Assembly: GCF_000186865.1 (NCBI RefSeq)
Contig: NW_008705566.1
Coordinates: 1,977,699 to 2,041,698 of the forward strand
DNA: 64,000 nucleotides
Source of the DNA: Aureococcus anophagefferens
Taxonomy: Eukaryota; Sar; Pelagophyceae; Pelagomonadales; Pelagomonadaceae
Reading direction: 5' to 3'
The notes under the pieces are model-generated. The model was not told the origin of the DNA. It worked only from the letters and a program-made list of their open reading frames with translations, and ran no database searches. Numbering within the stretch: position 1 is the stretch's first letter; the number at the start of each line of letters is the position of its first letter. Shown here piece after piece: positions 22,180 to 62,331 of this stretch. The translations under genes and the position numbers were made by a program.

Positions 22180-24008
22180 CTGTGCACACCCTAATCAGAG
22201 GGGGTGCTGCGGCCACTAGACGTCCAGCCCCCCCGGTGCGCACGGACGCGCGCGTCGAGCGGCCCGAGAGCGATTGGCGCTGTCGACTGCTACCTCTAGG
22301 AGGGCCGGAAACGCTCTTCTTTGTTTCGTAGACCCGACTTCGCGCGCGCACGCGTCGGTCGACAAAGTGGCGGAATCGGCCGAGCCAGCCGTGCTCCGGC
22401 GGATCAGCGTTTGAATAGCTTCTTTTGCGACTGGAGGCTCGTCATGGTGGTGCGAGTCGATGGTGCGACGCACTCTTTGTGGTTCGTCGACTTTTGGGCG
22501 ACTCGCGAATGTCCGCCGGGCGCCGAAGCGCTTCGACCGAAAACGCGAGCCGCGGTGCGCCTGTGGGCGCTGGCGGCGGTCTGGCTGTCGTCGAAGGCGT
22601 GGACCATATGTTACGAGCGGGCGAAGGCGTCGGAGTCGCCCCGGGTTGCGAAATCGGCGTGCGAGAGGTTGTTCTGGTCAAAAGTGGCCTCAAATAGCCC
22701 GAAAACGAATGATTTCGGCGCCAAACGCAGCGTTTCGCGTCGACCGATCACCGTCGCTGTGTTCCGCCGGGCGGTTCGACATCATAGAGCTCCTGCACGG
22801 CGATCTACACCGTCTCCGACGCCCACAAGGTGCCCGACACTCGCCGAAAGCGTCTCGGCCGAGAAGCGGCGAATGGTCTCCGCGGCCTGTTTCGACCGCG
22901 TCCGGGCCTCGGTCGAGGTTTGTGCGACCTGTCCGTCCATCGACGGTCCCGACCGCAGCCGCGAGCGGCTGGATCGCCGCAGAGAGCGCCTTGGAGCGCC
23001 TCCAGGGGCTCAGAATAGCCCATTTTCACCTAAATTTGCTCCTGCAGGCTCTGTAGCCAGCCTCCGCGGGCCGCCCGTGCTTTCCTGAGAGCCGCCCGCG
23101 TCGGTTTCGTTCACGCTTAAGCAGGAACTTGCGTGGGTAAGCTCTAGAGAGCCTTATGGGAGTGCTTTTAGGTAAAAATGAGCTATTTTGAGCCCCTGGA
23201 GGCGCTCCAAGGCGCTCTCTGCGGCGATCCAGCCGCCCGCGGCTGCGGTCGGGACCGTCGACGGACGGGCAGGTCGCACAAACCTCGACCGAGGCCCGGA
23301 CGCGGTCGAAACAGGCCGCGGAGACCATTCGCCGCTTCTCGGCCGGGACGCTTTCGGCGAGTGTCGGGCACCTTGTGGGCGTCGGAGACGGTGTAGATCG
23401 CCGTGCAGGAGCTCTATGATGTCGAACCGCCCGGCGGAACACAGCGACGGTGATCGGTCGACGCGAAACGCTGCGTTTGGCGCCGAAATCATTCGTTTTC
23501 GGGCTATTTGAGGCCACTTTTGACCAGAACAACCTCTCGCACGCCGATTTCGCAACCCGGGGCGACTCCGACGCCTTCGCCCGCTCGTAACATATGGTCC
23601 ACGCCTTCGACGACAGCCAGACCGCCGCCAGCGCCCACAGGCGCACCGCGGCTCGCGTTTTCGGTCGAAGCGCTTCGGCGCCCGGCGGACATTCGCGAGT
23701 CGCCCAAAAGTCGACGAACCACAAAGAGTGCGTCGCACCATCGACTCGCACCACCATGACGAGCCTCCAGTCGCAAAAGAAGCTATTCAAACGCTGATCC
23801 GCCGGAGCACGGCTGGCTCGGCCGATTCCGCCACTTTGTCGACCGACGCGTGCGCGCGCGAAGTCGGGTCTACGAAACAAAGAAGAGCGTTTCCGGCCCT
23901 CCTAGAGGTAGCAGTCGACAGCGCCAACCGCTCTCGGGCCGCTCGACGCGCGCGTCCGTGCGCGCTGGAGGCGCGGACGTCTAGTGGCCGCACCATTAGG
24001 GTGTGTGT
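22180..24008. mobile_element. 1.83-kb foldback element with ~0.87-kb inverted arms
   Basis: The sequence from about 22180 to 23057 is repeated in reverse complement from about 23141 to 24008, leaving a loop of roughly 80 bp. Where I compared the arms they differ at only a few positions over some 800 bp; divergence rises near the loop and at the extreme outer ends. The outer ends read CACACCCTAAT and ATTAGGGTGTG. The direct repeat GGTGCCG flanks it at 22173-22179 and 24009-24015 (one base further out differs, C versus T), which suggests a 7-8-bp target duplication. Frames open in both arms begin with non-ATG codons and encode Arg/Ala/Ser-rich low-complexity sequence with no domain, so I do not call them genes. 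A non-autonomous foldback transposon is the simplest reading. Confidence 0.75.
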
Positions 24009-25693: not shown

Positions 25694-26830
25694 TCACTTT
25701 TTCGAAATTCTTGGCAAATTTTCAAGTTCTTGCGCACTGAGAGGCTCAGACTTCGCGCGCTTCGCGTGCGGCGCCGCGTTTTCCTCGTCGACGACGACGG
25801 CGTTCTTGATGAGCTCGGCATCACGCTCATCGGAAGAGCGCACGCGCGTCACCTCGACCTCAGACTTCTCCGTGGTCACCGTGGTCTCCGGGGACGGAAG
25901 CGAGGTCCCAAAGCTGTTGGCGGCGTTCACGGAGATGCTGTATGTGGTGTCGGCGGTCAAGCCAGTGACGGTTACGGCATTAGGCTGGCGTCCGAAGTAG
26001 GAAGCTGTTGAAACGAGAACCATTTTCTGCGAATGAACAAAGGACGTCATGCCGCCGGTTGCGAAACTAATCGAAGCGGCAGTTGTGGCCACGCGCGCAA
26101 TATTTTGCAAAGGGAGCGTGTAAGAGACGCGCACCGACGTGTCGCCGAGGACTTCCACGTCTGGAGCGCCCGGAGCAATCGGCGCAAATTCCTTGGAGCA
26201 GTACGACGTAGAAGGCGATGGAGTTCGACCGGCGCCGTTCAAGCTGAAAACGACCACAGTATACTTCTTCCCTAGTTCCAACCCTGAGACCTTTTTGTAG
26301 GAAGTCCGTGACACTGGAGTCGTCATCATCTGCTTCTCGCGAATTTCATCCCCGGCCTCGTTGGTGAAGACGATCTCGATCGCGTTGCAGCTGAACGGCG
26401 CGGCGAAGAACACGTTCGCAGACCCCATGTCAGCCGGAACCACGACGGGCATGGCGGGCGCTTTCGGCAGCGTGAACGTCTTGGGCAGACTCCGAGGCGA
26501 CTCCGGGCCGAAAGAAATCTCGTCAGATTCGCGCGCGCAGAACGTCGCCGTATATTTGACGTCGGGCTTGAGCCCTTCGACAGTGAAGGCGAGCTTCGTG
26601 AAAGGCGTACGCTGGGACGGCGTGACACGCCAGGCGCGGCCTACCGCGCCGGGCGGTAGCATCACGCCCGTGGCGGGAACCAAGAGCTTGACTTCGTCGT
26701 CGCCCTCAAATAAATAGATGAGGACGTGCGCGGCTGATTTAGGCACGGCTAATGAGACAACGATTTTCGCGTTTAGCACTTCGATGACAGGCGCTTCCAT
26801 TGCGGCCGTGAACTGAGCGGTAGAAGCCAT
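25694..26830 (-). CDS. Fibronectin type III repeat protein (paralog 1)
   Basis: 378 residues from the ATG at 26830; another in-frame ATG at 26800 (MEAPVIEV) lines up with the start of the paralog at 41267. Three to four Fn3-like repeats are seen, each with the end pattern GLKPDVKYTATFCARES, GLELGKKYTVVVFSLNGAG and GLTADTTYSISVNAANSFG. The C-terminus is charged with a possible nuclear signal (KRAKSEPLSAQE). There is no signal peptide, which is unusual for Fn3 domains and suggests an intracellular role. Third positions are less G/C than in neighbouring genes. Shares whole blocks with the gene at 39972-41267 (PESPRSLPKTF, IAPGAPDVEVLGDTSVRV). Confidence 0.8.
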   Translation of the reverse strand: MASTAQFTAAMEAPVIEVLNAKIVVSLAVPKSAAHVLIYLFEGDDEVKLLVPATGVMLPPGAVGRAWRVTPSQRTPFTKLAFTVEGLKPDVKYTATFCARESDEISFGPESPRSLPKTFTLPKAPAMPVVVPADMGSANVFFAAPFSCNAIEIVFTNEAGDEIREKQMMTTPVSRTSYKKVSGLELGKKYTVVVFSLNGAGRTPSPSTSYCSKEFAPIAPGAPDVEVLGDTSVRVSYTLPLQNIARVATTAASISFATGGMTSFVHSQKMVLVSTASYFGRQPNAVTVTGLTADTTYSISVNAANSFGTSLPSPETTVTTEKSEVEVTRVRSSDERDAELIKNAVVVDEENAAPHAKRAKSEPLSAQELENLPRISKK

Positions 26831-27124
26831 CGAAGAACGGCGCGGCGCAGGCGGCGCGGCGCGCGGCGCGGCGGCGGCGGTGGCGCAGGTGAAAGTGAGT
26901 GGCGGCGCGTTCGTCGCAGTGCTGAGCGTGCGCGCGACGGCCCCGGCGCGGTCTACCGCAGCCTCGACGCCCACTTCGAGCCGAGCCTCGTCTGTCGAGG
27001 ACCCGCAGCTGGATGCGCGTTCGCAGAGCCGCCGGGCCGCCGGGGGTCGATAGGCTTGTCGATCCGCCGCGTGCACCCGAGGCCTCGCCGGCTAGACCAA
27101 GTCACAAACAAACTCCCCGTTACA

Positions 27125-39971: not shown

Positions 39972-41267
39972 TCACTTCTTCTTCGGGGGCGGTGCGTGGG
40001 TGAGATTAACCCAGACCAGGTCGCGGTAGTAGCCCAGGCCCTTGGCGCCCCGCGCGAAGAAGAAGCCGGGCATCACACCGGCGTACGCGCCCGCGGGCTT
40101 GAAGTCCGCGTCGGCCGCGGGCGCCGGCTCGTCGCGCGGCCGCTTCGCCGCGCCGCCCGCGGACTGCTTCGCGCGCTTCGCGGGCGACTCGTCGACATCG
40201 ACGGCGTCCTTCATGAGCTCGGCGTCGCGCTCCTCGGAAGAGCGCACGCCCGTCACCTCGATCTCGCTCTTCTCCGTGGTCACCGTGGTCGCCGGCGACG
40301 GAGGCGAGAACCCGAACTGGTTGCAGGCTTTCACTGAGATGGCGTACTTGGTGTCCGCTTTTAAGCCCGTGACAGTCTCGACGGAATTTATTGGTGGAAA
40401 GAAGCCGACGCCTTTTTTTGCGGCGACGAAATCATTCAATTCTTTAGCCGGAACAAGCTTGAATGTCGGTGGTACCGGGGAGGGAGCAGGGTAGATAACC
40501 GAAAATTCCTCACCACCGGCTTCAAAAGTGATCTTGACGCCCGTCGTGGAAAGAACATCGAAACGGTCATACGTCGGTCTCGCAAAACCCACTTTCACAG
40601 AAGTGTCCCCCAGGACCTCCACGTCTGGCGCGGGAGGCGCGATCGGCGCGTGATCCGCCGCGCAGTACGTCGTGGAAGGAGATTCTGAGCTTGGACCAAC
40701 GCTGCTGAACGCGATGGCGCGCACTTTGTACTTGGTCTCCTTATCCAATCCTTGAACGAGAACAGATCCACTATGAGTATCCGGCGTGGTCAGGTCCACG
40801 TGCGTGGATTTTAGATCATTGAAGTAAATTTTGATCGCATGAGCGCTCAGGGGTGCGACGTAGAAGACGGCCGCCGTGGTGCCGTTATGCGGGAGGACGC
40901 GGGGCTCGGCCGGCGACTTCGGTGGCGCAAAAGTCTTGGGCAGACTGCGCGGCGACTCGGCGCCGAACGATACTTCGTCGGCTTCGCGCGTGGCGAACGT
41001 GGCCGTGTAGACCGTGTCAGGTTGGAGCTCCCTGACAATGCAGGTTCTAGTAGACACATTTGTACCAGAATATAATGGCGTGACCCGTGCCTTCATTGCG
41101 CGCCCCACCTCACCCTCCTTCAGGAGCGTGCCCGTAGCTTCATCGTACATGTGCTTGGTCTCCCGCTCGCCTTCGAAGAGGTACAAAATGGCATGCGAGG
41201 AATTCGGCGGCGGCGTGAATGAAACTGTGACTTTCCCGCCATTGAACGAAATGATAGGCGCCTCCAT
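39972..41267 (-). CDS. Fibronectin type III repeat protein (paralog 2) with GYV/FF-type tail
   Basis: 431 residues from the ATG at 41267 (MEAPIISFNGG), 72 bp inside the boundary of the MITE-like unit that holds its upstream region. Fn3-like repeats parallel the gene at 25694-26830. The C-terminus differs: after a basic stretch (KRAKQSAGGAAKRPRDE) it adds GFFFARGAKGLGYYRD, which resembles the GYVFKMGDEGLGYYLD segment of the parvulin gene at 62611. No signal peptide, so an intracellular, probably nuclear protein. Function unknown. Confidence 0.8.
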   Translation of the reverse strand: MEAPIISFNGGKVTVSFTPPPNSSHAILYLFEGERETKHMYDEATGTLLKEGEVGRAMKARVTPLYSGTNVSTRTCIVRELQPDTVYTATFATREADEVSFGAESPRSLPKTFAPPKSPAEPRVLPHNGTTAAVFYVAPLSAHAIKIYFNDLKSTHVDLTTPDTHSGSVLVQGLDKETKYKVRAIAFSSVGPSSESPSTTYCAADHAPIAPPAPDVEVLGDTSVKVGFARPTYDRFDVLSTTGVKITFEAGGEEFSVIYPAPSPVPPTFKLVPAKELNDFVAAKKGVGFFPPINSVETVTGLKADTKYAISVKACNQFGFSPPSPATTVTTEKSEIEVTGVRSSEERDAELMKDAVDVDESPAKRAKQSAGGAAKRPRDEPAPAADADFKPAGAYAGVMPGFFFARGAKGLGYYRDLVWVNLTHAPPPKKK

Positions 41268-41338
41268 CGAGCTGGACGCGCGCGCGCTGCCGCAAAAATG
41301 CGGCTCTTCGCCGATCGAGCTGACCCGCAGCCCTACTG

Positions 41339-41947
41339 TAAAAGTACCTTGCACTAGAAAAACAACATGTTTCCCCTAGTGAGGGCTTTGCGCAGGCTCC
41401 GCGCACTTCTCCATGTGATGATCCGAGTTTTAGTGCACCAAAATTGGTCACGCCCGAGAGACAGGCGCTGCCGAGCCATCGGCAGCGGGTCGGCGAAAAT
41501 CGGCGCGCGCGCGCCTGCGTTTTAGCGATAGACGCTGTGGCAAAAATGTGCCGAAAAAGGGCTGCATGTGGACCCATTCGCGCGCACTACCATGGCATGA
41601 TCACTATCTTTTGGGGGTCCACAAGCCGCGCTCGTCCGCGCGGGGTCCCAGGCAACTCAGCGCGCCAAGCACGGGCAGCCGCAGACGCTGGGATCGCTTC
41701 GTGGAGCTCATGGCGCGCTCGAACGTGCTCCAAAGCGGGTTCCGCAGCCCGCCGCGCCGTCGCGTTCCCAGCGACCGGCTCACCATAACTCGGCTATGCG
41801 CGACGAGAGAACGTCGTCGCGGCGTCGCAAGGTTCCATCGGACCCAGCTGACATCGCAGCGGCCATTGCACGGGCGCACCAGAGGCTGCCGAGGAGTCGA
41901 CTACACTTCAACTCATGATGTTGCTTTTCTAGTGCAAGGTACTTTTA
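41339..41947. mobile_element. MITE-like unit with 30-bp terminal inverted repeats
   Basis: The left end (41339-41368) and right end (41918-41947) are inverted copies with one mismatch over 30 bp; the core reads AAAGTACCTTGCACTAGAAAA. TAC occurs just outside both ends (41334-41336 and 41948-41950), a possible short target duplication. The 549-bp interior has no convincing gene; frames there are unsupported and base composition is mixed. The unit fills most of the space between the Fn3 gene and gene X, and the Fn3 gene must start transcription within or next to it. Confidence 0.6.
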
Positions 41948-42141
41948 GTACGCGACCGACGCCGGCGTTGACGGCATCACGGGCTCTCCCCGTCGCCGCG
42001 CAGCGGCAGCACGCCGCATGGGGCTGGCTGACCCGAGGAGCCTGCTGAGCCGAGGCGACGCCCTCGGCGTATACTATATACGTATCGGCGAGACCTCGGG
42101 GATGCGGCGCAACCGAGCACACGGACTTTCCTTAAGCACAC

Positions 42142-43791
42142 TCACGACCTCCGCCAGAAGCGCCACCACGGTCGCGGCGGCGCCTCCGCCGCCACGACGG
42201 TCGCCTGCGCGCACTCAAAGTCGACGTTCGCGGCGCAGCGGGAGAAGATGGCCTCGATCTTCTCGGCATCGATGGTCTGGATGAGCTCCTCGACGAACAA
42301 CCGCACGAGCGCGAAGCGCATGGACCTGTGTGGAAATCAACCAGTGAGCTGGGACGTCGGGGCCAAACTTCAGAAATCTCTAGCTCGGTCAAATCGAAGT
42401 CGATTCAGCTGATTTTTGGACGAATCGATTGCTCTCGTCGAGTTATCGAAGCACAGCCAAAGAGCCTGTGTCGAAAGATTCGAATACGCACACATTGAAG
42501 TCGGGTTGAAGATTTGATTTGCACACAGGCATGGACTCGGGCATGACGAGCTGGAGCCGGCCGAAGATGTCCTCCTTGGGGTCCATCAACTCCAGGCACA
42601 TGTTGTAGCGGAGCACGTGCTCGAAGGGCTTCTCGTGCGCTTTCTTCCGCTGCGACTCCGTGTGGGGGTCCTCGAGGGGGTGGCGCCGCACGGCGAGCTC
42701 GTGGTGGCGCCGCCCGCGGACCGCGTCGCCGTACTCGTGGTAGGACGTCGTCAGCGCGTTCGTCACGGACGCGGAGGCCATGTTGACGGCGTTCTCGATC
42801 ATGCTCGCGACGACGGACACGGGCACCAACGGCAGCTTGTCCGTGTAGGCCGCGAGGTTGTTCACGAAGGCGTTGCGCTCGTCCTCGTCGTAGAAGATGT
42901 GCTGCACGCCCCGCAAGAAGACGTCCGTGACCAACGCGTGGTGCTCGTCGGGCGACCTGGGCAGCAAAAGGGTGATTCAACGTCGCTTCAACGTGAGTGT
43001 TCCGCGCGCGCGCGTTCCAAATAAAGCATCCACGCTTCGAGACCGTTCCGGGAGATGATCGCTCGTCCAAAAATCAGCCAAAACGAGTGGAAAACGGCCG
43101 AGATAGGAGCCTTTGAAGTTGGGAATTTCGCACACTTTTGCTGCTCGTCGGGCGACAGGTGCGCGGCGACGTCCTCGTGGGACCGGCGCATGGACCGCAT
43201 GAGCATGGCCATGACGCAGCGGATCACGCGGCGCCGGTCCGCGTCGTCGAGGAAGGGCAGCTGGACCTCCGCGAAGAGCCAGCGCGACATCGCGGCCTCG
43301 AACTTGTCCGCGGCGACTTTCGGCATGACCTGCTTCGAGTGGACCAAACGGATGAACTCGTTGGGCAGGTTGTGCGCGATGGTGTCGATGATCTTCAGCA
43401 CGCAGAACTCGAAGATCTCCTGCTCCTGCGCCTCGTCGAACCAGACCAGGTCCACGAGGTCGTTGATGAGGTGCGACGTGTGCACCACCTCATTATCACT
43501 GAGGCAGAGCTTCGCGCGGGGGCTCCGCTCGATCTTCGTGCCGACGTAGCGCTTGCTCAGCGGCACCTCGGCGCGCAGGTACTCGTCGCGCTTGTCGTCG
43601 CAGAGGTCGTGGTACCAGCGCGCGCCGCGGTCCAGCGCGCCGTGGATCTTCGCCGCCTGGCTCCGGTCGACGTGGAAGACGCCGCCGACCGTGTGCTTCT
43701 CCTCCTCGCTCCGCGAGAAGGGGCCGCCCGACGCCAGCCAGGCCGCGCCGGACGCCGCGGCGAGCGGGCCGAGGCGGCCCACCGTGAACAT
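42142..43791 (-). CDS. Three-exon gene X, helical protein with two introners
   Basis: Exons: 43791-43157, 42956-42537, 42325-42142, giving 412 residues. The start is the ATG at 43791 (MFTVGRLGPLAAASGAAWLA), the first in frame. The first join reads EDVAAHLSPDEHHALVTDV and the second QLVMPESMRFALVRLFVEEL; both are smooth. Exon 3 (IQTIDAEKIEAIFSRCAANV, ending RPWWRFWRRS) would be missed unless the second intron is recognised. The protein is helical and soluble-looking after a hydrophobic N-terminus that may be a targeting signal, with a Trp/Arg-rich end. I do not recognise the family. Confidence 0.78.
42326..42528 (-). mobile_element. Introner, subfamily 2 (intron 2 of gene X)
   Basis: A 203-bp element with 15-bp terminal inverted repeats (CTGTGTGSAAATCAA, one mismatch between the ends). 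It is flanked by a perfect 8-bp direct repeat (sense GTCCATGC) at 42529-42536 and 42318-42325. On the gene's sense strand the upstream repeat gives the GT donor and the element's terminal ACACAG gives the acceptor, so the intron is 42536-42326 (211 nt). The 16-bp block GCTGATTTTTGGACGA (42408-42423) is identical to a block in the 192-bp introners, although the terminal repeats differ. Confidence 0.85.
42957..43148 (-). mobile_element. Introner, subfamily 1 (intron 1 of gene X)
   Basis: A 192-bp copy between 8-bp repeats (sense GTCGCCCG) at 43149-43156 and 42949-42956; the spliced intron is 43156-42957 (200 nt). The 3' terminal repeat is intact (sense CTTTTGCTGCCCAG). The outermost four bases of the 5' terminal repeat have been replaced, so that 15 bp, not 8, now match across the junction. 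Confidence 0.9.
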
Positions 43792-54285: not shown

Positions 54286-57200
54286 ATGGCGGACCAGGAG
54301 ATGCTGGCGCTCCTGGCGACGAACCTCCAGGCCATGTACCACGGCACGGACGCGGCCCAGCGGCGGAGCGCCGACGCGTTCCTCCAGAAGCTGCAGCGCG
54401 AGGCGAGCGGGTGGGGCCTGGCGGACGCGATCCTCGGCGGGCGCACGCCCTTCGCGTCGGGCCCCGGCGACCTCGCGTCCAACGCGCTCGGCGCCGAGGC
54501 GGTGACGTTCGCGTCGATGACGCTCCACGCGAAGGTCTCCGGCGACCTGCACGAGCTGTCGCCGGAGCAGGCCGTATCGCTGCGCGGCGCGGCGCTCGAC
54601 CACCTCGCGCGCTGGAGCGGCGTCGGCGTGCCCGGCGTCGTGGTGAAGAAGCTGGGGCTGACCGTGGCGGCGTTGGCCGTGTCGACGTCGTGGGACGGCG
54701 CCCTCGACTTTGTCCGCGAGGCGTTCGGCCGCGAGGAGGCGGACGCGGCGCAGGGCATGCGGACCAAGGTCGTCGCCGTCGAGCTGTTGGCGGCGCTGCC
54801 GGAGCAGTGCGCCTGGAAGGAGCTGAACGTGCCCCTGAGCCGCCGCGAGGCCTACACGCGCTACCTCTGCCAGAGCTCCGAGGGCGTCCTCGGCGTGCTC
54901 ACGCAGCTCGTGGTTTGGGCCGCGGGCGCGGCCGCGGGCTGCCCCGCGGGCGCGGAGCAGCTCAACGGCGCCGTCTTCGGGTGCCTCAAGTCCTGGATCT
55001 CCTTCTGCGACATCAAGGCCGAGCACCTCGCGTCGAGCGCCCTCTTCACCGGAGCGTTCGACGCGCTGGGCCACGGCCCGCTCTTCGAGCACGCGTGCGA
55101 CGTCATCGTCGAGGCGCTGCGGCGCTTCGACTGCCGCCTGCCGGAGAACGGCGTCCTGGTCGCCGCCATCGCGCCGCGCGTCATGGCTCTAGAAGCGCGC
55201 TTCGCCGCGGCGACGGCGAGCGAGGACGACGACGAGGCCATGGGCCTCTGCCGCATCTTCTGCGAGATGGGCGAGGCCTACATGCCCATGATCGCGAGCG
55301 AGCGCGACTGCAACCAGCTCGCCATCGTTTCTGTGATGATCAAGTGCACGGAGTACCCCGCGCGGCGCGTCGCGGCCAGGGCAGCAAAAGAGAGCGAAAT
55401 TCCCAACTTCAAAGGCTCCTATCTCGGCCGTTTTCCACTCGTTTCGGCTGATTTTTGGACGAGCGATCATCTCTCGGGACGGCCTCGCAGCGTGGATGCT
55501 GTTTCCGGAACGCGCGCGCGCGGAACACTCACGTTGAAGCGACGTTGAATCACCCTTTTGCTGCCCAGGTCGCGGCGGCGCCGCTCCGGTTCTGGTACCA
55601 CCTCGCGCGCGCGGTCGGGCGCCTGGCCGACGGCGACCCGGCGCGCGCGAGCCTCGTGGCCAAGTTCCGCGACGCCTACGCGTCCCTGGCGCGGCTCTGC
55701 GTGCGCCTGAGCGTCCGGGGAGAGCACGACGTCGACGCCGCGGACCCGCGGTTGGACGGCGACGACTTCTCGAGCCACCGCTGCGACCTCTTCGACGCCT
55801 TTGGCGACGCGGCCTACTTCCTCGGGGCCGACGCGGTCCTCGCGGCCGTCGCGGAGGAGGTGCAGCTGGCGACGGGCGCGAACGCGACGTGCGACGGCGT
55901 CGAGGCGTGCTTGTTCGCCTTGACGGCGCTGTCCGACTTCGTGCCCGACGCCGAGGCCTTCGTGCTCCCGTCGGCCTGCTCCATGGTCTGCGCGTTGCCG
56001 CGCGACTGGCGCCGCGCGCGCGACCGGGGGTCCGTGTTCGTGGGCGCGTACGCGCGGTGGCTCCGGCGGCGGCCCGACGCGCTCCGGTCGTGCTTCCAGT
56101 TCCTATTGGACGAGCTCGCGGCCCTGCCGGCCCAGGCGCCGGCCAAGGGGGACCACAGCTCCCAGGCCGCGCGCGCGCTCAAGCGGCTCTGCGACAAGTG
56201 CGCGCCGGAGCTGGGGCAGGCGGGCGCTTTGACGATCCGCGACACGCTGACGAACCGCGTGCCGCTCAAGGACGAGCTCGAGATCCTCGAAGGCCTGGGC
56301 GCCGTCGTCGCGGCCATGCCGGACTACGAGGCCGTCCGCGCGGGCACGGAGCAGCTCGCGGGCCCGCCGGCGCTCGCTTTGACGGCGATCGCGTCGTCGA
56401 ACGCGGCGGGCGAGCCGCGCGTCGTCGCGCGCGAGCTCGACCGCCTCACGTCCGTCGTGCGCTACGCGTCGCCGCCGGCGGCGCTGTTGGGGAGCCGGCC
56501 CCACCCGGTCCTCGAGCTCTTCGACAAGCTCTGGCCCGTCTTCGAGGCGCTGGGCGCCAAGTACCGCGAGTCGACGGTCGTCGTCAGGGCAGCACAAGGG
56601 TGATTCAACATCGCTTCAACGTGAGTGTTCCGCGCGCGCGCGTTCCGGAAAAAGCATCCACGCTTCGATGCCGTTCCGAGAGATGATCGCTCGTCCAAAG
56701 ATCAGCCGAAACGAGTGGAAAACGACCGAGATAGGAGCCTTTGAAGTTGGGAATTTCGCACCCTTTTGCTGCCCAGGTCGTCGTCGAGAAGCTGTGCCGG
56801 TGCTACAAGCACGCGATGCGGTCCTGCCGCAAGGCCTTCGCGCCCATGCTGAGCCGCATGGCCGCGCATCTCGTGCAGTCGTTCGCGTCGAACCCGATCT
56901 CGTCGTTCATCTACTGCTCGTCGATCTGCATCACGGAGTTTGGCGACGAGGCGGAGAAGCGGCCGGCGCTCTTCGACATGTTCGCGTCGCTGTCGTCGGC
57001 GGTTTTTGGGTTGCTGAGCACGCCCGAGGCCTACGCGGCGGCCCCCGACGTCGTCGAGGAGTACTTCTACCTCGCGTCCCGCTTCCTGGACCACTGCCCG
57101 GAGCCGCTGCTCGAGAGCCCGCTGCTCGCGGCGTTGCTGCGCGCGGCGACGGCGGGGCTGGCCGTGGAGCACCGCGAGGCGCTCCGGGGCGTGCTCCACT

Positions 57201-57709
57201 GCTGCGACCGCTTCGCGTCGACGGCGATCCGGTCGCTCCAGCGCGCGGGCGGGCCCCTGCCGCCGGCCGTGGCCCACTGCGAGCCGCCGCTGAGCCGCCG
57301 CGACGCGCCCCAGTCGCAGCAGGACGTCGACGACGCGCGGCGCCACGCGGCGACGCTCCACGGGTTGCTGGTCGTCGAGGCGTCGGGCGCGGCGCTCACG
57401 GACGGCCTGCTCAAGGCGCTGTCGGGGGACCTGCCGTCCTACATCAAGGACGAGGGCCGCGGGTCGCTGCTCGGCGTGCTCTGGAAGCTCCGGCTCGTGT
57501 GCCCGCCGGAGTCGTTCGCGGCGTGGTGCTCGACGAGCCTCGCGGTCATCACGGACAAGTTCGCGTCCCACGAGATCACCAACGACCTGCTCAAGTCCGT
57601 CGCCGTCGAGCCGCCGCGCAAGGACCACTTCTACGACGCCTTCGCCGTCTTCGCGCGCTGCTTCTCCGCGAAGCGCAAGATGAAGACGCGCCGCTCGGGC
57701 CGCCGCTAG
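54286..57709 (+). CDS. TNPO3: Transportin-3/MTR10-like nuclear import receptor, three exons
   Basis: Exons 54286-55368, 55569-56576 and 56777-57709 total 1007 residues. All joins are in phase 0 before a GTC codon: YPARR/VAAAPLRFWYHLA and AKYREST/VVVEKLCRCYKHA. The N-terminus (MLALLATNLQAMYHGTDAAQ, ASGWGLADAILG) and LTQLVVWA/ISFCDIKAEH blocks fit the importin-beta-family transportin-3/MTR10 group, which imports SR splicing factors in animals and yeast. HEAT-like helices run to the end, finishing RKMKTRRSGRR. Both introns are introners. Confidence 0.85.
55377..55568 (+). mobile_element. Introner, subfamily 1 (intron 1 of transportin-3)
   Basis: 192 bp between perfect 8-bp repeats GTCGCGGC (55369-55376 and 55569-55576). 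Termini CAGGGCAGCAAAAG and CTTTTGCTGCCCAG are inverted repeats with one mismatch. The spliced intron is 55369-55568, 200 nt. Translated without splicing it gives a 57-residue tail (AAKESEIPNFKGSYLGRFPL...) before a stop. Confidence 0.93.
56585..56776 (+). mobile_element. Introner, subfamily 1, reversed (intron 2 of transportin-3)
   Basis: 192 bp between perfect 8-bp repeats GTCGTCGT (56577-56584 and 56777-56784), in the opposite orientation to the intron 1 copy. The spliced intron is 56577-56776, 200 nt. In this orientation the sense strand carries a consensus-like GTGAGT at 56621-56626, 44 nt inside. Using it instead would leave an in-frame TGA. Confidence 0.93.
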
Positions 57710-59482: not shown

Positions 59483-62331
59483 CTAGGACATGCTCTCGTC
59501 GACGTCGACGTTCGGGTGGACCGCGAGGACGGGCTCGCCGTCCTCGTGCGCGACGACGATGACGAGCTCGTCCTTCTGGAGGCGCTTGAGGATCTGCTTG
59601 AGGAGCTTCGTGTGCGCGGCGACCTCGTCGCCGACCTCGTCCGCGTGGACGCGGAGGTACCAGTCGAGGATCGCGGACCGCGGGAGGCCCGGGACGTCGT
59701 CGAGCGTCGCGCGCGACCGCAGGTGCGTCGTGATGAGGAGCCGGTAGCGCTGGTAGTCCTCGTAGGAGAGCTTGATCTTGGTCTTGGGCTTGGCCGCGTC
59801 CGCCGCGGGCGCCGCCGCGGGCGCGTCGTCGCCGCCGCCGTCGCCGCCGTCGCCGTCGCCCGCGGGCCGCTTCGCCGGCGGCTCGTCGCCCGCGTCGCCC
59901 TCGTCGCCCTCCCGCGGCCGCTTCGCCGCCGACGGCGGCGCGTCGCCGTGCGCGTCGTCGCCGTTCGCGGCGACGTGCTCGTCGCCGGCGAGGTCGACGT
60001 TCGCCGCCGCGAAGACGTCGTCGTCGTCGTCCAAATCGTCGAGGACGACGGCCTCGGACTCGACGCTGATGATCGACTTCTTGAGCAGGCGGAAGGCCTC
60101 CCTGACGTCGTCGGGCTCCACCGTGTCGCTCATGCGGATGCGCGCGTGCGCCTCGGAGAGCCGGACGAGCGACTCGAGCTGGCGCACGGTGACGCGGTAC
60201 GCGGTCTTGTTGCGGCCGACGCAGTCGTTCTGCCGCAGCTGGCGGTAGCACTTGACGAGGGTCGTGTGCGCCGCGTCGCCGATCTCCGGCGTGAGCTTCT
60301 TGGCCACGCGGACGTAGGCCCGGAGCTCGTCGAGCGTGAACGGCGCGTCCAAGGCTTTCCGCTCGCCGCGGTGCACGTCGACGATGTGCGTCGCGACGGC
60401 CCGGTCCGTGAGCTCGTCGCAGTCGTCGACGACGATGAAGAAGAGGTCGAAGCGGCTCATGATGGGCGCGGTCATGTCGACGTTCGCCTTCAGCGTCTTC
60501 GACTTGTCGTAGCGGCCGTGCTTCGGGTTCGCGGCCGCGAGGATCGACGTCCGCGCGTTCAGGTTCGCCTGGATGCCCGCCTTGGTGATGGAGATGGTCT
60601 GCTGCTCCATGGCCTCGTGGATGGCGACCTGGTCCGCGCTGTCCATCTTGTCGAACTCGTCGATGCAGCAGACGCCGTTGTCCGCGAGCATGAGCGCGCC
60701 CGCCTCGACGCAGAACTCGCCCGTCTCGCCGTCGCGGGCGATGGACGCCGTCAGGCCCGCCGCGGACGCCGCTTTACCGGACGTGTAGACGGACCGCGAG
60801 AGGAACGAGTGCACGTATTTCAGGAACTGCGACTTCGCCGTCGACGGGTCGCCGACGATACAGACCTGGGCAGCAAAAGGGTGATTCAACGTCGCTTCAA
60901 CTTGAGTGTTCCGCGCGTGCGCGTCACGAGAAAAGCGCCCACGCGTCGAGACCGCTCCGAGAGATGATCGCTCGTCCAAAAATCAGCCGAAACGAGTGGA
61001 AAACGGCCGAGATCGGAGCCTTTGAAGTTGGGAATTTCGCTCTCTTTTGCTGCCCTGATGCAGACGTTGACGTCGCCGCGGAGCTTGATGCCCTCGTGCG
61101 TGCGCTTGTGGACGCCGCCGACCAATTGAAGCAGCACGCCGTGCTTGATGTCCTTGTGGCCGTAGACCGCGGGCGCGACGGACTCGGCCAAGGCGTCGTA
61201 GACGCGCGGGTGCTGGCGCATGCGCCGCGCGACGACCTGGTCCCGGGCGTCGCGGGGCGTCATGATGCGGTCCGGGTCGTCCGTGACGCCCCCCGCCGTC
61301 TCCAGCGCGCGCAGCGCCTCGTCCTCCTCGTCCTCGCGCAGCGCCGCGTCGCCGCCGACGTCGTCGGACCGCTCGATGGAGCTGCCCATGAAGAGCAGCC
61401 GGTAGGTCATCTCGCGGGAGCCGGCCTGCTTCGTGCCCGTCACGCCCTGGGCCATGCCGTCCTGGCCCGTGCGGCTACTCACCGTGGCCTCGCCCGCGCG
61501 CGCGAGGCCGCCCGTGTCGGGCATGACCGCGAGGCACCCCGTCGCGACGATCTTGTCGCCGGCCTTGACCTGCTCGACCATCTCGTCGCGCACGAGCACG
61601 TCCATGGACCGGGGTAAGGACCCGGCGGGGATCTCGTCGGGCGCCTCCTGGAGCCGCACGCGCTGCCAGTCCGCGAAGCGGCTCCGCTCCATCTGGAGCT
61701 GCCACGCGGCGGCGGACGCGTTGTTGCACTGCGGGTTGCGGCAGATCGTCGGCGTCGTGTAGCGGAGCTGCTGCTCGACGTCGTCGGCCTGGAGGCCGCA
61801 CTTGAGGCAGAGGAAGGAGCCCGCGAGCAGCTCCGGCCGCACGTCGCTCGTCCGCGTGACGACGCCGCGGCACCGCACGAGCGACCCGACCTTGTCGCTC
61901 CGCAGGTCCCGCAGCTTCGCCGCGTCGCGGTGCAGGTTCCGGAAGCAGACGAACAGATTCTTCGCGTCGAGGGGGTCGCCGCCCGCGGGCCCGTCGCGCG
62001 CCGCGCCGACGGACCGCTCGTAGACCTCGCGGTACGCGCGCTTCGCGCCCGCGCGCGCGCAGACCTCGAAGCGGTAGAACTCGGACTCGATGGCGAGGGC
62101 GAGCTCGCTGTCGTGCTGCTCGAGCTCCGCGAAGTCCACGCGCACCGTCGCGCCCTCCTCGGCCGCGACCATGCCCTCGAGCTGCGACGCGTACGGCCGC
62201 TTGCCGCCGCCGCACCCGCCGCCGTCGTCGTCGGCGTCCTCGGGGCTCGCACCGGGGCTAAAGTCGAGCAGGAACCGGCAGAACCGCTCGACGACCTGGT
62301 TGTTCGTCTCCTGCTCCGTCACCTCGGCCAT
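59483..62331 (-). CDS. MCM6: MCM6-like replicative helicase subunit, two exons
   Basis: Exons 62331-61066 and 60865-59483 give 882 residues. The N-terminal OB/zinc region has CLKCGLQ and CRNPQCNN. The AAA+ core reads LRGDVN/VCIVGDPSTAKSQFLK across the splice, then Walker B VCCIDEFDKMDSADQVAIHE, and MSRFDLFFIVVDDCDE (arginine finger). The REMTYRLLFMGSS stretch before the core and the AFRLLKKSIISVES block after it match MCM6 better than other MCMs. A low-complexity acidic and KRPRE insert precedes the winged-helix C-terminus (YQRYRLLITTHLRS). MCM6 is one of six subunits of the MCM2-7 ring. Confidence 0.93.
60866..61057 (-). mobile_element. Introner, subfamily 1 (intron of MCM6)
   Basis: 192 bp between 8-bp repeats (sense GTCTGCAT at 61058-61065 and GTCTGTAT at 60858-60865, one difference). 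The spliced intron is 61065-60866, 200 nt, inserted before the Val of the VCIVGDPSTAK motif. It has the same orientation relative to transcription as copies 42957 and 55377. The single mismatch in the repeat shows that the insertion is not brand new. Confidence 0.92.

Follow-up and report, generated by a model that had tools for sequence, protein, structure and literature searches.

The window analysed here, a stretch of 64,000 nucleotides of Aureococcus anophagefferens DNA, carries four copies of a 192-bp element, interpreted below as introners, which lie within the genes for transportin-3 and MCM6 and within a third gene, termed gene X. The features are listed with upstream and downstream given in gene sense.

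54286..57709, plus strand: transportin-3 gene, 1007 aa in three exons, with predicted introns after residues 361 and 697, both in phase 0
55369..55376, plus strand: upstream target repeat of copy 2, GTCGCGGC, source of the predicted GT donor
55377..55568, plus strand: introner copy 2 in transportin-3, 192 bp, CAGGG...CCCAG, core type I (B end at the sense 5' side)
55569..55576, plus strand: downstream target repeat of copy 2, GTCGCGGC, forming the first exon bases
56577..56584, plus strand: upstream target repeat of copy 3, GTCGTCGT
56585..56776, plus strand: introner copy 3 in transportin-3, 192 bp, CAGGG...CCCAG in gene sense, core type II (inverted core)
56777..56784, plus strand: downstream target repeat of copy 3, GTCGTCGT
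59483..62331, minus strand: MCM6 gene, 882 aa in two exons
61058..61065, minus strand: upstream target repeat of copy 4, GTCTGCAT
60866..61057, minus strand: introner copy 4 in MCM6, core type I, the predicted intron being 61065-60866
60858..60865, minus strand: downstream target repeat of copy 4, GTCTGTAT, matching its partner at 7/8 positions
42500..43791, minus strand: first part of gene X, starting at 43791, the low end being only the limit of the stretch read; introner at residue 211.7
43149..43156, minus strand: upstream target repeat of copy 1, GTCGCCCG
42957..43148, minus strand: introner copy 1 in gene X, core type I, with its outer 5' inverted repeat replaced
42949..42956, minus strand: downstream target repeat of copy 1, GTCGCCCG

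The preliminary description of this DNA had placed four 192-bp copies at 42957-43148, 55377-55568, 56585-56776 and 60866-61057, and all were confirmed there, each within a predicted GT...AG intron of 200 nt, the length that had also been claimed. The 8-bp flanking direct repeat is exact in three of the four, while the two repeats of the MCM6 copy differ at one position, a synonymous change (Cys). Similarly, the element ends that were said to be common to all four are generally present, except in the copy at 42957, which lacks the outer 5' inverted repeat and reads ACGAGCAG in place of CAGGGCAG. As the outer end of this copy has been replaced by target-like sequence, its direct repeat is 15 bp long by eye, rather than 8 (GTCGCCCGACGAGCA on both sides, spanning 42949-43163). 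At the gathering threshold, Rfam gave nothing in the window.

Joining the transportin-3 exons at the predicted splice sites gives an open frame of 1007 aa, the alignment of which with solved transportin-3 (residues 7-839) is gap-free at both junctions. Identity to the A. anophagefferens records P0002 and P0003 is 98% and 97%, respectively, in a multiple alignment, and BLASTP gave 94% over 55% and 95% over 83%; the differences mostly fall where the gene models appear to be in error, and both public models have the same junction residues as predicted here. In MCM6 the junction falls after residue 422, between RGDVN and VCIVGDPSTAKSQ, and GDPSTAKS, which we take to be the Walker A motif, begins four residues on. 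The spliced protein aligns with solved MCM6 chains without a gap at the junction, where the public A. anophagefferens models P0022 (87% over 76%) and P0023 (84% over 80%) have the same residues as predicted, the gene models differing in part elsewhere. For these two genes, the gap-free homologue alignments bear out the idea that splicing gives uninterrupted proteins; for gene X, the certainty with which an exact junction had been assigned was overstated, given the public models P0015 and P0016.

No Pfam family was matched by gene X, the homologues of which are P0014-P0020, A. anophagefferens records among them. P0014, P0019 and P0020 read across the junction like the spliced form. P0015 and P0016 keep approximately 21 nt of the element end region, with EQQK preceding SPDEHH. 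A second GT donor lies 21 nt inside the intron of copy 1, and splicing of the window sequence from this inner donor would give SPDEQQK before SPDEHH, exactly the residues of P0015. Since P0014, P0019 and P0020 have no extra residues, the P0015 and P0016 junctions may be prediction errors. Further along the gene, at 41500-42500, there is an apparent second, different intron after ...VMPESM, as judged from P0015.

Some public records bear on whether the copies are fixed at these sites. P0017 enters the element in gene X and then stops, P0014 continues across the same site, and P0021 represents a seamless MCM6 frame, 98% identical, whose cluster has a longest contig of 16,692 bases, which is long for a transcript. 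Seven short motifs of a retained element were absent from P0001-P0020, the P0017 allele being one residue off the motif used. P0014, P0017 and P0021 may be unspliced frame calls, and P0014 and P0021 may derive either from empty DNA sites or from transcripts. The P0014/P0017 pair together with P0021 would, in the former case, point to presence/absence variation, and the long contig behind P0021 hints at an empty genomic site.

The genome searched comprises 49,050,692 bases in 86 contigs, and within these 49 Mb a 12-base element end occurs at 935 places, compared with 12 for its reversed control, and so more often than by chance. From fetched loci, 135 different full-length copies were collected, the window's four included, in a sample that is not random: the first loci were the best matches of a search (8 of 40 cut out), further loci were picked among the first 100 listed of the 935 end matches, on contigs C1 and C2, and another 60 were picked among the first 100 listed of 370 matches to a pattern that favours one of the two core orientations, type II. 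Partial blast matches and those at locus edges, 14 in all, were dropped, and copies identical in both element and flanks were counted once.

The sampled copies are uniform, with a length of exactly 192 bp in 114 of the 135 and a median divergence of 4.8% from consensus among 134 cores. Their target repeats match at 8/8 positions in 110 copies and at 7/8 in 14, giving 124/135 at 7/8 or better. Ten of the 134 AG-ended copies fall below 7/8 in register, four of which reach 7-8 when the register is moved by 1-2 bases and six of which do not. AG is found at exactly one end in 134 copies, at neither end in one (in locus L009), and at both ends in none (0/135). Downstream of the AG-ended copies the repeat starts with GT in 70 cases, GC in 63 and GA in one; far from lying mostly without a splice-site repeat, 133 of these 134 sampled copies have one that starts with GY. 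Where the two repeats match at 7/8 or better, position 1 is invariably G (124/124), position 2 is Y in 123/124, and the mirrored repeat end gives GY in only 34/124. Such a one-sided pattern is what splicing, rather than a symmetric target preference, would produce. Beyond positions 1-2, the repeats approximate local base composition, and the largest excess is a C just before the repeat (68/124).

Pattern searches of the whole genome agree with the sample. TTTTGCTGCCCAGGY was found at 437 places (1 in the control), and TTTTGCTGCCCAGNNB at 423 (6 in the control), with 100 of the 100 rows listed for the latter reading GY. Ends then Y showed no excess over the control (8 vs 9). The fetched loci and the window together hold 272 ends matching GGGCAG[GC]A[AC]AAG, overlapping loci being counted twice, and 262 of these lie in or beside a 192-bp element match; the other 10 comprise the four ends of the symmetric relatives described below, which make eight through double counting, and two apparently unrelated matches in L011. 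Neither the viral nor the prokaryote collections contained an exact match to a 23-mer from the core.

The reading frame across joined flanks was assessed for 130 of the 134 copies, four being dropped because their flanks were too short, with a codon score derived from the three window genes, the copies in which also belong to the test set. The best-scoring frame lay on the sense strand in 127 copies and on the antisense strand in three. Joined flanks were open in sense over approximately 120 codons in 122 of the 130, and five contained a stop. The open cases divide into intron phases 0, 1 and 2 as 63, 19 and 40, and if the elements were retained, 120 of these 122 frames would be broken, in most cases because 200 is not divisible by three.

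Between fixed CA...AG termini, the 188-bp core is found both ways round, as type I in 62 copies and type II in 72, which is not a genome ratio, as the sampling favours type II; among loci L021-L053, which are less biased and consist mostly of exact-end pairs from C1 and C2, the ratio of type I to type II is 23:13. The types interleave in a poorly resolved tree of 134 cores, requiring 15 parsimony changes against a shuffled mean of 44, and branches with good support make at least three of these orientation changes unavoidable. The mixing is incomplete, as the types differ on average near the B end. In L083, a type I copy is one base away, over all 188 bp of the core, from three type II copies. 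This mix of orientations could have arisen by the core inverting between its terminal repeats, or by a symmetric ancestor undergoing a T-to-A change at one end or the other. Insertion in both orientations was already reported in the 2016 paper on Aureococcus introners, according to the accessible part of a review (PMC10228655).

Two longer relatives have the same terminal repeat in a symmetric arrangement, CAGGG...CCCTG, without an acceptor AG: one of 478 bp on C1 (L010:277-754), and one of approximately 500 bp on C32 (L062, approximately 1156-1657). The C32 relative is flanked by an exact 8-bp repeat, CGCGCGAC, and none was seen by eye around that on C1; a DNA search with the C1 relative as query returned only these two as longer relatives. 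Judged by their ends, they may represent the unspliceable ancestral form. It can tentatively be proposed that a symmetric, unspliceable CAGGG...CCCTG transposon became an introner by one T-to-A change that made AG at one end, either repeatedly in both directions or with the change moved by core inversion. Polarity would then not be fixed, and the same core would be spliceable either way.

A sister family of introners ending GTTTCCCGCCCAG, with ends of the type GCGGGAAACGGG, is represented at L006:2857-3048 and L056:2650-2841; genome-wide it has 51 acceptor-like ends that fit GTTTCCCGCCCAGNY (control 0), 46 of which read GY under a pattern that itself demands Y. Partial core matches at L021:2004-2195 and L034:122-313 lie inside what appears to be a different repeat, which ends in TGTGGAAATCAA/TTGATTT and may be one more family. 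Other repeats in the window include a near-perfect inverted repeat at 22227-23974, with 808-bp arms that are 99% complementary and 132 bp apart, and two similar 460-aa frames on the minus strand, at 25694-27076 and 39972-41354, which are 14.3 kb apart with repeats 71-81% identical; the frame at 39972-41354 matches a fibronectin type III domain.

The copies are very probably the introners of Aureococcus: non-autonomous, MITE-like DNA transposons that were inserted by a transposase with an 8-bp duplication, taking the donor from the target and AG from the element end. Like introners, they are near-identical introns at many unrelated gene positions, in which target duplication and element each give one splice site; like MITEs, they are short and uniform, with terminal inverted repeats, a target duplication and a high copy number. 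The preliminary description had likewise proposed introns made by DNA-transposon-like insertion with a donor from the target repeat, and is supported by the GY count (133/134) and the open joined flanks (122/130). In the mechanism envisaged, a transposase would insert the 192-bp element, with terminal inverted repeats GGGCAGCAAAAG/CTTTTGCTGCCC, and duplicate 8 bp of target. One element end gives AG (CCCAG) and the duplicated target gives GT or GC, so that 8 bp of target plus 192 bp of element make an intron of 200 nt, which the spliceosome would remove exactly. Insertion would take place at many sites, the survivors being those with GY on the sense strand and the AG end downstream, because other insertions would break the gene; survival thus seems to depend on spliceability.

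Three alternatives can be set against this reading. Ordinary old spliceosomal introns whose shared sequence arose without DNA transposition, through reverse splicing of intron RNA for instance, would also lie within genes, in sense and with splice sites, and the accessible text of one study relates a proposal that fungal introners spread by way of RNA (PMC9860276). Reverse splicing is nevertheless a very improbable source of these copies, as it would not yield inverted repeats at both ends, an 8-bp duplication (124/135) or two core orientations (62 and 72 copies). Somewhat less improbable, though still unlikely, is a transposase that itself targets GY, from which the genic location would follow and which would leave little role for splicing selection. 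The G and Y at the first two repeat positions are what such an enzyme would leave; however, a complex of two like ends should favour the mirrored bases at positions 7-8, where GY is infrequent (34/124), GY goes with the CA end in every AG-ended copy but one, and 127/130 copies score best on the sense strand in the frame test.

That the copies are plain MITEs, disrupting genes and not acting as introns, hardly merits belief, although their structure is that of MITEs and their splicing is read here from DNA sequence. All four window copies, if retained, place a stop codon in frame, which would truncate conserved proteins, MCM6 just before Walker A, and the joined flanks form open frames in 122/130.

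In the introner mechanism, the transposase would be supplied by an autonomous element. None was found, and a 5.2-kb candidate between matching ends on C1 (L009) was rejected as two separate 192-bp copies. hAT transposons make 8-bp target duplications and follow an end rule that resembles CAGGG. The elements here share with hAT transposons and their MITEs the 8-bp duplication (exact in 110/135, and at 7/8 in 14), and their ends, which start with CAGGG, resemble the hAT end rule. The hAT transposase profiles PF05699 and PF14372 had no match in the genome, a weak negative result, as no control genome matched either; membership of hAT is a candidate assignment. The KDZ profile PF18758 gave an equally weak result, with no match here or in any control genome, and the MULE profile PF10551 also had no match, with control genomes matching in 3 of 14 cases.

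The finding is already known, and amounts to a correct, independent rediscovery of a mechanism published for A. anophagefferens. The introner elements of this species were reportedly described by Huff, Zilberman and Roy in 2016. In the accessible parts of later papers, they are presented as small, non-autonomous DNA transposons that bring one splice site in their own end and recruit the other from gene sequence (PMC9612004), as having canonical splicing motifs together with direct and terminal inverted repeats that are constant in length (PMC7789003), and as having a characteristic length near 210 bp (PMC9481584). The elements in the window fit these descriptions, in keeping with their earlier assignment to a class known from Aureococcus. 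The species is the same or very near, the co-opted splice site, the repeats and the occurrence of both orientations are alike, and a comparison by published description, as opposed to element sequence, found no difference from the 2016 introners in the text accessible. The canonical motifs mentioned in the accessible part of PMC7789003 can be set against the GC-AG introns predicted for 63 of the 134 copies here. In the accessible passages, only the range of GC donors given across introner families, 0 to 50% (Gozashti et al., PMC9860276), touches on this high GC-donor share. From the accessible text of the same 2022 study, introner family 4 of Aureococcus sp. TARA_AOS_82_MAG_00129 belongs to the same genus and has an 8-bp target duplication; in contrast to the elements described here, which carry the acceptor only and would add nothing to the transcript, that family brings both splice sites with it and lengthens the transcript by 12 bp.

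Introners show, within one genome, the mass production of spliceosomal introns by DNA transposons, and the window is a tidy example for teaching, in which one predicted intron precedes the MCM6 Walker A motif by four residues. The one-sided GY rule, which holds in 133 of the 134 AG-ended copies, quantifies an apparent selection for splicing, and the symmetric-ended relatives offer a testable ancestor for the family.
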